From assembly GCF_015710575.1 (NCBI RefSeq), contig NZ_CP065373.1, positions 4,712,001-4,776,000 on the forward strand: 64,000 bases of DNA. The letters are read 5' to 3'. The stretch is from Mycolicibacterium mengxianglii. Lineage in GTDB: Bacteria; Actinomycetota; Actinomycetes; Mycobacteriales; Mycobacteriaceae. Positions 26,556-28,778 of the stretch are shown in pieces. The notes under the pieces were generated by a model. That model worked only from the letters and a program-made list of their open reading frames with translations. It did no database searches and was not told the DNA's origin. The position numbers and the translations under genes were made by a program. The stretch's first letter is position 1; each line of letters starts with the position of its first letter.

Positions 26556-28154
26556 CTATCTGGCTTCGGTGACGACCCCGGGAGCCGCCATCGTCAAGAT
26601 CCGGTCCAGCTCCAGGCGGCGCAGGAAATCGTCGTCGTGGCTCACCACGATCACGGCGCCACGGTAACTGCGTAGCGCATCAACGAGCTGGTCGACGCTG
26701 GTGATGTCCAGGTTGTTGGTCGGCTCGTCCAGAATGATCAGCTGCGGCGGGGGTTCGGCGAGCAGCACCCGCGCCAAAGCGACCCGGAACCGCTCCCCGC
26801 CGGAGAGGGTGCCCACCGGTCGGTGCACGCTGTCGCCGCGCAACAGGAACCGCGCCAGTTGCCCGCGGATTCGCTCGGCGCCGGCATCCGGAGCCACCGC
26901 ATGCACAGCGGCCAGAACCGTCGTCGCGTCGTCGAGCCCTGCAGCGGACGCGCCTAGCCGCTGCGGCAGGTAACCCACCCGGTCGGTCAGCAACCGGCCC
27001 GCGAGCGCCTCCTCGGAGCACAACAGGGCCTCCAGAAACGTGGTCTTACCGATGCCGTTGGGTCCGACGATCCCGATCCGTTCCGGGCCCTGCACCACCA
27101 GCACCCCACCGGGGCCGCGTAGCTCGGCAAGCCGTCGGCCGGCGGGCACAACCGGGTCGGGCAACTCGACGCGAATGTGCTCGTCCTCGCGGACCCGCGC
27201 GGCCGCGGCCTCGGCGGACTGCCGTGCCGCCTGCAGCCGGCCTTCGTGGTCGGACCGGAACTTACCCGCCGAGACCTGGGCCGCCATCGCCCGGCCATTG
27301 GCCACGATTTTCGGTACCCGCTTCTCGGCGTAGGCCTTCTTGCCGGCTCGGTTGCGCCGTGCCAGCTTCGTCTCGGCCTCCGCCCGTTGGCGTTGCTGCA
27401 CCCTGGCCGCCTGATCAGCGGCGCGGGCGGCCTGCGCGGCGGCCGCCTGCTCGGTCTCGAGGTGGGCACGCCACTGCGAATACGGACCGCCGAAAACCGT
27501 CAGTTCGCCGCCGTGCAGTTCTGCGGTGTGGTCCATGAGCTCCAGCAGCGCCACGTCGTGGCTGACGATCACCACCGCGCCCGGCCAGTCGGCGATGCTG
27601 CGGTGCAGCGCAGCGCGGGCGCCCCGGTCGAGGTTGTTGGTCGGCTCATCGAGCAGCGTCACCGCTGCCCGCCGCAGCCGGAGCCCGGTGACCGCGATGA
27701 GCATCGCCTCACCGCCGGACACGGTTGCCACCGGCCGGCCCAGATCGACGGCACCCAGCCCGATGTCGGCCAAAGCGGCCCGCGCCCGGGTGTTGATGTC
27801 CCAGTCGTCGCCGACGGTCTCGAAGTGCCGGTCGCCGATGTCGCCGGATTCGATGGCGTGCAGCGCGGCCAGCACCTCAGCGACGCCGAGCAATTCGGCC
27901 ACCGAGGGGTCGGCGGCCAGGGTCAGGGTCTGCGGGAGGTAGCCGACCTGGCCGCTGGCGGTGACGGCGCCGGTGGTCGGGGTCAACTCACCGGCGATGA
28001 GCCGCAACAAGGTGGACTTCCCGGATCCATTGGTACCGATGAGCCCGGTGCGGCCGGGGCCGAAAGCAGCCGTGACTCCGGCCAGGGCGATTGACCCGTC
28101 GGGCCAGGTAAAACCGAGATCGTTGAGGACAACGGAAGTCTGAGAGTGGGACAT
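26556..28154 (-). CDS. ABC-F family ATPase (ribosome-associated, probable antibiotic resistance type)
   Basis: 532-residue protein with two ATP-binding cassettes and no membrane part. Cassette 1 has Walker A GTNGSGKST, signature VSGGEAML and LLDEPTNNLD; cassette 2 has GPNGIGKTT, LSGGERFR and ILDEPTNNLD. They are joined by a long charged linker (about residues 235-320, rich in Arg/Lys/Gln) that in this family reaches into the ribosome. The ATG at 28154 follows GGAG, which is inside a hairpin stem. A 12-codon leader peptide and a WhiB7-like promoter precede it, the arrangement of translation-inhibitor-induced ABC-F genes. Ribosome protection is therefore the likely role; the drug class cannot be told from sequence. 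Confidence 0.9.
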   Translation of the reverse strand: MSHSQTSVVLNDLGFTWPDGSIALAGVTAAFGPGRTGLIGTNGSGKSTLLRLIAGELTPTTGAVTASGQVGYLPQTLTLAADPSVAELLGVAEVLAALHAIESGDIGDRHFETVGDDWDINTRARAALADIGLGAVDLGRPVATVSGGEAMLIAVTGLRLRRAAVTLLDEPTNNLDRGARAALHRSIADWPGAVVIVSHDVALLELMDHTAELHGGELTVFGGPYSQWRAHLETEQAAAAQAARAADQAARVQQRQRAEAETKLARRNRAGKKAYAEKRVPKIVANGRAMAAQVSAGKFRSDHEGRLQAARQSAEAAAARVREDEHIRVELPDPVVPAGRRLAELRGPGGVLVVQGPERIGIVGPNGIGKTTFLEALLCSEEALAGRLLTDRVGYLPQRLGASAAGLDDATTVLAAVHAVAPDAGAERIRGQLARFLLRGDSVHRPVGTLSGGERFRVALARVLLAEPPPQLIILDEPTNNLDITSVDQLVDALRSYRGAVIVVSHDDDFLRRLELDRILTMAAPGVVTEAR

Positions 28155-28156
28155 GA

Positions 28157-28197
28157 CGGCTCCGGTGGTGAGCGGGGAAGCGCTGAAACCGGAGCCG
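28157..28197 (-). promoter_or_regulatory. Hairpin sequestering the ABC-F ribosome binding site
   Basis: In the minus-strand transcript CGGCTCCGGT (28197-28188) pairs perfectly with ACCGGAGCCG (28166-28157), a 10-bp stem with a 21-base loop. The GGAG that serves the ABC-F ATG (28154) lies in the 3' arm, so translation should be blocked while the stem is closed. Just upstream, CACCTCCT copies the 16S anti-Shine-Dalgarno sequence. Confidence 0.65.
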
Positions 28198-28222
28198 AGG
28201 AGGTGCGGCGAGTCGACGGTTG

Positions 28223-28261
28223 TCAGCGCGCGGACGGCGCGAGACCGTTGATGCCTGTCAT
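28223..28261 (-). CDS. Leader peptide of the ABC-F gene (12 residues)
   Basis: ATG at 28261 opens a 13-codon frame ending in TGA at 28223 and encoding MTGINGLAPSAR. It has no ribosome binding site, but the -10 TACGGT lies exactly 6 bases before the ATG, so the peptide would be translated from the first base of the mRNA. Its stop is 25 bases before the stem that hides the ABC-F ribosome binding site. A ribosome stalled by an antibiotic on or just after this frame could open the hairpin, as known for erm- and ABC-F-type attenuation. The role is inferred from architecture. Confidence 0.6.
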   Translation of the reverse strand: MTGINGLAPSAR

Positions 28262-28267
28262 GCCCCC

Positions 28268-28305
28268 ACCGTAGTGACGGCGGCCCATCGGGGGCAACCG
28301 AATTG
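28268..28305 (-). promoter_or_regulatory. WhiB7-type promoter of the ABC-F transcript
   Basis: Minus strand: TTGCCC (28297-28292) as -35, an 18-base spacer, TACGGT (28273-28268) as -10, then 6 bases to the leader ATG. An AT-rich CAATT sits 3 bases upstream of the -35, which is the remembered hallmark of WhiB7-dependent mycobacterial promoters. Confidence 0.55.
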
Positions 28306-28324
28306 TCGCCGTGCCCGGTTTTCG

Positions 28325-28337
28325 TAGGCTGGTGGCT
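28325..28337 (+). promoter_or_regulatory. Leaderless -10 element of the cupin gene
   Basis: TAGGCT at 28325-28330 lies 7 bases before the ATG at 28338; no ribosome binding site is present. Confidence 0.4.
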
Positions 28338-28778
28338 ATGACCGACCTGCCCGAGTGGGCTGAGCAACTGGACCTGGCGCCGCACCCCGAGGGGGGCTGG
28401 TTCCGCGAGACCTGGCGCAGCGACCTGACCCTCGGGCCGTCGGCGTTACCGCCCGACTACATCGGGCCCCGCAACGCCGGTACGGCGATCCTGTTCCTGC
28501 TGATGCCCGGCCAACAGTCCGCCTGGCATACCGTCCGCAGCGCCGAGTTGTGGTTCTACCATCGCGGCGGACCACTGCTGCTCGAGATCGGCCGCGAACA
28601 AGCAAGTGCCACAACGCATCTGCTGGGCAGCGACATCGCCGCGGGCGAGCACCCGCAAACGATCGTCCCGCCGGGGCATTGGCAGCGTGCCCGCCCCCGC
28701 GGCGACGAGCCCTGTCTGGTCAGCTGTGTCGTGGTACCGGGATTCGACTTCGCCGACTTCGCGCTACACGCGCCTTAA
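28338..28778 (+). CDS. DUF985 cupin-fold protein
   Basis: 146-residue single-domain cupin of the DUF985 type. The pattern is LAPHPEGGWFRETWRSD near the start, GTAILFLLMPGQQSAWHTVRSAELWFYHRGGPLLLEIG in the core and TIVPPGHWQRARP, then CVVVPGFDFADFALH at the end. Several His/Glu residues could bind a metal, but no reaction is known for the family. It probably has a leaderless mRNA. Its stop overlaps the convergent BKACE-type gene by four bases. Confidence 0.85.
   Translation: MTDLPEWAEQLDLAPHPEGGWFRETWRSDLTLGPSALPPDYIGPRNAGTAILFLLMPGQQSAWHTVRSAELWFYHRGGPLLLEIGREQASATTHLLGSDIAAGEHPQTIVPPGHWQRARPRGDEPCLVSCVVVPGFDFADFALHAP

Follow-up and report, generated by a model that had tools for sequence, protein, structure and literature searches.

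A predicted drug-inducible leader under a WhiB7-type promoter upstream of an ABC-F gene in Mycolicibacterium mengxianglii

How is an ABC-F gene controlled whose WhiB7-type promoter is followed by a very short reading frame and by a stem that covers its own ribosome binding site? The question arises in a window of 64,000 nucleotides, the whole stretch of DNA analyzed here, from Mycolicibacterium mengxianglii (GCF_015710575.1, contig NZ_CP065373.1, forward strand, 4,712,001-4,776,000). A sequence-only reading had described the promoter, a 12-codon frame, and a perfect 10-bp stem hiding a GGAG, and we recovered all three on the minus strand at 28305-28155 (Table 1). The GGAG (28163-28160) is the sole one ahead of the ABC-F start and lies 5 bases from the ATG at 28154. 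We consider it probable that this arrangement is a drug-inducible leader, in which a WhiB7-type promoter is combined with ribosome-mediated attenuation of translation to control an ABC-F ribosome-protection gene.

TABLE 1 Features of the ABC-F gene and its leader (window positions)
Feature	Positions	Strand	Basis
ABC-F ATPase gene, 532 aa, ATG at 28154	26559..28154	-	Domain matches, orthologs
AT-rich CAATT, putative WhiB7 AT-hook contact	28301..28305	-	Sequence; W3-N3-TTG layout in 38/45 orthologs
-35 element TTGCCC, 3 bases past CAATT	28292..28297	-	Sequence; ortholog pattern
-10 element TACGGT, spacer 18 bases	28268..28273	-	Sequence; ortholog pattern
Upstream 12-codon frame MTGINGLAPSAR with TGA ending at 28223; predicted leaderless	28223..28261	-	Ortholog comparison
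Segment 1, GCGCTGACAACCG, frame end and next bases; complement of segment 2	28217..28229	-	Folding, comparison
Segment 2, CGGTTTCAGCGC, 5' side of the hiding hairpin; complement of segment 1	28180..28191	-	Folding, comparison
5' arm CGGCTCCGGT of the perfect 10-bp stem	28188..28197	-	Sequence, folding
3' arm ACCGGAGCCG of the 10-bp stem, includes GGAG	28157..28166	-	Sequence, folding, opening cost
CACCTCCT, anti-Shine-Dalgarno look-alike, judged incidental	28198..28205	-	Present in 1/45 orthologous leaders

Judged by its domains, the gene product is an ABC-F ATPase of the antibiotic-resistance type and likely a ribosome-protecting protein. It contains two ABC_tran stretches, corresponding to two ABC ATPase domains, with P-loop NTPase models as the remaining Pfam matches, and its best PDB matches are ABC-F proteins. 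The top NCBIfam match is NF000355 (ribo_prot_ABC_F), whose 289 bits lie under the model cut-off of 380. Among 396 genomes sampled from the genus, 45, including its own, carry a close ortholog (E value of 1e-160 or better). In a quick tree of 113 proteins, which left out 15 loci taken as 601-base stretches, loci of 40% identity or less, and L089, the protein groups with Mycobacterium, Microbacterium, propionibacterial, and other relatives. This group is split, with a support of 94, from the rows holding two published Streptomyces leader types, namely, TTG CTC GTC (or TTC) TGA, similar to are5scL1 (MLV), in 10 rows, and a GDDISG-like type, resembling tiaAL (MVGDDDISG), in 21 rows, both counts coming from an incomplete word search. 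Because of this incompleteness, and because the tree holds no named ARE5 protein, we infer an "ARE5-like" affiliation only tentatively.

In Mycobacterium abscessus, WhiB7 sites are reported to consist of an AT-rich motif 3 bp before the -35 element and a TANNNT -10 element 13-14 or 23-24 nt after the -35 element (PMC10727445), and the WhiB7/WblC regulon of this species includes ABC-F genes (PMC10727445, PMC3905903, PMC7157823). The window promoter shares the AT-rich motif at 3 bp and fits the 23-24 nt form. By this layout, it appears to be of the WhiB7 regulon type, and regulon membership is predicted. The strict promoter pattern occurs in 38 of the 45 orthologs, with 0.01 expected in all of them according to shuffles, which together with the window sequence bears out the promoter assignment made initially. 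Among the seven orthologs missing the strict pattern, L120, L121, L123, and L149 have a near-form, and L153, L155, and L156 carry a G or C at an AT position. A pattern derived from the window, AWWNNGGTTG...TANNGTGG, has its single occurrence in the 5.96-Mb genome at this locus. The genome encodes seven WhiB matches; one of them, L006, carries the WhiB7 marks EPWGVWGG and RGRPRK, the inspection for these marks covering six of the seven loci. On the other side of the promoter, a divergent Cupin_5 (DUF985) gene (window 28341-28778, plus strand) starts 44 bases past the first base of the -35 element. By eye, relatives of class I and many of class III, but not those of class II, seem to have this neighbor at the corresponding upstream place, the classes being defined below.

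We sorted the leaders of the 45 orthologs into three classes. In class I, the near-leaderless layout (n = 10, including the window), the upstream start codon follows the -10 element after 6 to 7 bases; in the window, these are the 6 bases GGGGGC in minus strand reading, ending before the ATG at 28261. Such a distance would suit a leaderless start, and the window's transcript is predicted to be of this kind, with its 5' end no more than about 3 bases from the frame's ATG. Class II (n = 14) and class III (n = 21) have Shine-Dalgarno-led frames, which read MTGI.GL.P.SAR or near it in class II and open with GTG GAT in all 21 class III leaders. The leader peptide postulated at the outset was thus recovered in part: a frame recurs in all three layouts, but a specific arrest peptide is disfavored, as the class I peptides differ (MTGINGSAPSAR, MTGNHGSVPHFAR, MLAHLGMSAR, VDDSKAPTAR, and MIDSRVAFAR) while the frame persists. 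A persisting frame with a varying peptide suggests that the relevant drugs arrest ribosomes on the start codon or immediately behind it. The anti-Shine-Dalgarno copy CACCTCCT, which the sequence-only reading had counted as part of the attenuation layout, is present in the window's leader alone (1 of 45), and we rejected it as a functional element. In front of further orthologs, we noticed other frame types. MEIEVDR followed by one residue and TAG is found in several non-mycobacterial genomes, at L044, L164, L165, L167, and L168 (the L165 version being VLIEEVDRI), and the two-codon frame TTG ATC TGA at L169, L170, L171, and L173, where the surrounding sequence looks complementary to a downstream segment adjoining the word GCGCTGA.

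The ABC-F start is harder to open than shuffled sequences would lead one to expect. Set against dinucleotide shuffles, the stretch 28261-28125 has the better fold (z = -2.86; 3 of 200 equally good), and the cost of opening the region around the ABC-F start is 15.9 kcal/mol, compared with 8.7 +- 2.2 kcal/mol in 60 shuffles, none of which reached this value. Folding and comparison support the stem proposed to hide the ribosome binding site.

Comparison of the leaders revealed a second pairing, which had not been mentioned before, between the frame end and the 5' side of the hairpin. Frames with a terminal -AR-stop are found in 19 of the 24 class I and II leaders, which are those with segment 1. 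The last seven bases of the frame, GCGCTGA, face TCAGCGC on the hairpin 5' side in 17 leaders, TCAGCGT in L144, and a shifted complement in L135. The scan covered 22 of the 24 leaders (L118 and L119 were left out) and detected no 1:2 pairing in L009, L122, and L125. GCGCTGA and complementary words also occur in other genera, at L039, L043, and L087 and, by eye, at L172, L174, and L177. In L163, L169, L170, and L173, the word falls, again by eye, well downstream of the short frame's stop; hence, it seems to be the RNA rather than the peptide that is kept. Since segment 2 can pair either with segment 1 or with segment 3, the 1:2 and 2:3 states would be mutually exclusive. A search of 28000-28400 against Rfam yielded a sole match, on the opposite strand with an E value of 0.85, far under the gathering score.

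Covariation is no proof of the 1:2 pairing. The segment 1:2 pairs hold in 94% of the alignment cells, compared with 27 to 49% when the segments are slid, but the share of paired cells does not stand out from that obtained after shuffling the partners (162 of 500), and there is one two-sided change. In the 2:3 stem, 85.9% of the cells are paired, above all 500 shuffles; its two-sided changes are unexceptional (86 of 500 shuffles) and are equalled in some slid versions. Segment 1 hardly varies, which leaves these tests with little information for the most part. The MAFFT alignment used (A1) misplaced L123 and L135, which were kept and lower the counts. The RNAalifold consensus contains a further contact, between TCCG in the frame and CGGA in the ABC-F Shine-Dalgarno region (A1 columns 31-34 and 116-119), which most of the 19 leaders can form. 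This contact may represent a third state, which does not fit simply into the switch model.

If the leader senses ribosomes, the accessibility of the ABC-F start should depend on where a ribosome resides on the upstream frame. A ribosome was simulated by blocking a footprint that reaches from 14 bases upstream to 15 bases downstream of the P-site codon's first base, and the cost of opening the ABC-F Shine-Dalgarno-to-ATG region was read out. In all 19 leaders with segment 1, this cost was lower with the ribosome at codons 1 to 5 than at the last four codons (mean late-minus-early difference, 3.8 kcal/mol, versus 1.0 kcal/mol in shuffles); with the ribosome at the last codons, the site stayed closed (mean, 15.7 kcal/mol). 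Per leader, this difference is modest: it was above all 40 shuffles in 4 of the 19 and matched by at most 2 of 40 in 8, it resembled that of their own shuffles in L124 and L154, and the window's value was reached by 3 of 40 shuffles.

A ribosome at codons 1 to 3, compared with none, lowered the opening cost by 4.3 kcal/mol in class I (shuffles, 0.8) and by 4.2 kcal/mol in class II (shuffles, 0.3). In class III, the cost dropped by 8.5 kcal/mol, from 13.9 to 5.4 (shuffles, by 1.3, from 7.6 to 6.3), and was back at 13.1 kcal/mol by codon 7 (shuffles, 7.0), although in L131 and L137 this renewed rise was no greater than in shuffles. The early-ribosome drop exceeded the shuffle mean in 44 of the 45 leaders, the exception being L140 with no drop; in L012, L139, and L146, there was almost none. 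In 31 of the 45 leaders, no more than 3 of 60 shuffles reached it (4 of 10 in class I, 8 of 14 in class II, and 19 of 21 in class III). The window, with a drop of 4.5 kcal/mol that 6 of 60 shuffles equalled, is outside these 31. Since the loci are related, counts over them are not independent, and we regard it as the stronger point that, in these folding models, three unlike layouts lean the same way.

With the ribosome at the start codon and the RNA extending up to segment 2, the probability of the 1:2 pairing was 0.87 to 0.99 in all 19 leaders (0.98 in the window). When the whole leader was folded, 1:2 belonged to the minimum-energy fold in 13 of the 19, which do not include the window. At equilibrium, the hiding stem of the window wins at every ribosome position, with a 1:2 probability of at most 0.01, and its GGAG had a probability of 0.00 of being unpaired, whichever of the five ribosome positions was tried. 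For the 18 remaining leaders, the probability of an unpaired Shine-Dalgarno sequence was at most 0.48 at these positions, so that none had an open site. The near-zero 1:2 values of L135 across ribosome positions at equilibrium are unreliable, as the pair definition used for them differs from that of the run with a start-codon ribosome. With the site mostly paired throughout, the gain lies in the opening cost and not in an open state. RNA folding, suggested earlier as a check, thus supports the stem and, in most relatives, a ribosome-dependent opening cost, but not an equilibrium switch in the window. As 1:2 is favored there only for RNA up to segment 2, the model needs folding during transcription.

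Combining these results, we propose two layers of control. The WhiB7-type sigma-A promoter would make the mRNA once WhiB7 is induced, and the 5' end of this mRNA would coincide with the ATG of the 12-codon frame or lie about 3 bases from it at most. With no ribosome on the frame, or with one at its end, the hairpin at 28197-28157 would hide the GGAG and the ATG of the ABC-F gene. A ribosome held by a drug on the first few codons would leave segment 1 free to pair with segment 2, first during RNA synthesis, rendering the ABC-F binding site easier to open. In a bolder version, which we put forward tentatively and rate at somewhat below even chances, the leaderless upstream start codon itself senses the drug: the switch would consist of a ribosome arrested right where the mRNA begins, WhiB7-dependent transcription and start-codon stalling would form an AND gate, the three mycobacterial layouts would reach the same logic of opening upon early stalling, and the -AR-stop codons would be kept for RNA pairing and not for the peptide.

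The same 1:2/2:3 logic would equally serve transcription attenuation, in which the hairpin would end transcription, intrinsically or aided by Rho, unless a stalled ribosome allows the 1:2 pairing, and Streptomyces are5sc is reported to be regulated transcriptionally (PMC12421871). We consider this unlikely for the window, where no terminator-like site was found at 28100-28400 and where the Shine-Dalgarno sequence is part of the 3' arm of the stem, with just 2 bases between this arm and the start codon. Translational coupling or reinitiation would dispense with drug sensing altogether, ribosomes that finish the frame or overlap the ABC-F start melting the stem. In L118, L119, and at least 12 of the 21 class III loci, the frame does run past the ABC-F start; in the window, however, the frame stops 68 bases short of that start, and the site remains closed when a ribosome occupies the last codons, which makes this mode of control quite improbable.

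The promoter could also be all that matters, with the short frame and the stem as by-products of a GC-rich leader. The moderate z score of the leader fold, the variable peptide, and a ribosome-dependent drop that in the window is not rare among shuffles are in line with this explanation. Yet three layouts, examined against shuffle controls, share the frame, both pairing segments, and a Shine-Dalgarno sequence that is costly to open, and we thus give it a very low probability. Ribosome-mediated translational attenuation, if it operates here, would join two resistance controls, WhiB7-dependent transcription and attenuation by ribosomes, on one mRNA. Intrinsic drug tolerance of these mycobacteria would then hinge not on WhiB7 alone but also on the ability of the particular drug to arrest ribosomes at start codons, and the 45 orthologs with their three layouts provide a natural set for the rule that early stalls open and late stalls close the site.

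Which drugs might act as inducers? ARE5 members are listed as conferring protection from pleuromutilins, lincosamides, and drugs of the streptogramin A class (PMC10201436), and at Streptomyces upstream open reading frames (uORFs), start-codon stalling is reported for lincosamides, tiamulin, and pristinamycin IIA, but not for erythromycin (PMC12421871). By analogy, drugs of the lincosamide, pleuromutilin, and streptogramin A type are the most likely inducers, and the variable peptide together with the early-stall rule favors this group over a macrolide-dependent arrest peptide.

The class of mechanism is already known; what appears new is a sensor that is predicted to be leaderless and to stand behind a WhiB7-type promoter, together with the exchange among three layouts. 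In erm-type attenuation, a three-segment switch hides the Shine-Dalgarno sequence and is opened by a ribosome stalled early in the leader frame. The window's leader would share this logic but has no conserved arrest peptide, and its frame is predicted to be leaderless. In the Firmicutes, induction of the ABC-F genes cplR and vmlR by ribosome inhibitors is reported to be uORF dependent (PMC10201436), as predicted for the window. Unlike its 12-codon frame, the uORFs described there have three codons (MR[I/M] and MIN), and the cplR leader contains an intrinsic terminator (PMC10201436). The Streptomyces ARE5 ABC-F genes tiaA and are5sc have a short uORF before the gene and alternative RNA pairings, as predicted for the window, and tiaA is apparently regulated at translation (PMC12421871). 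Their uORFs encode MVGDDDISG and MLV, whereas that of the window is the predicted leaderless MTGINGLAPSAR; their promoters are described as constitutively active without drug (PMC12421871), in contrast to the WhiB7-type promoter here, and in the quick tree, the window protein belongs to a clade separate from the rows with such leaders. Among the open-access papers searched, we found no description of the mycobacterial leader. Mycobacteria also possess ABC-F relatives of another clade with about 45% identity (L016, L022, L027, L028, L031, L084, and others). Their upstream frame is of the MLGDDISG type (variants, MLGIDDISG and MWGDDISG), matching the Streptomyces tiaA leader MVGDDDISG, and at some of these loci, e.g., L028, L031, and L084, it is accompanied by a WhiB7-like promoter.
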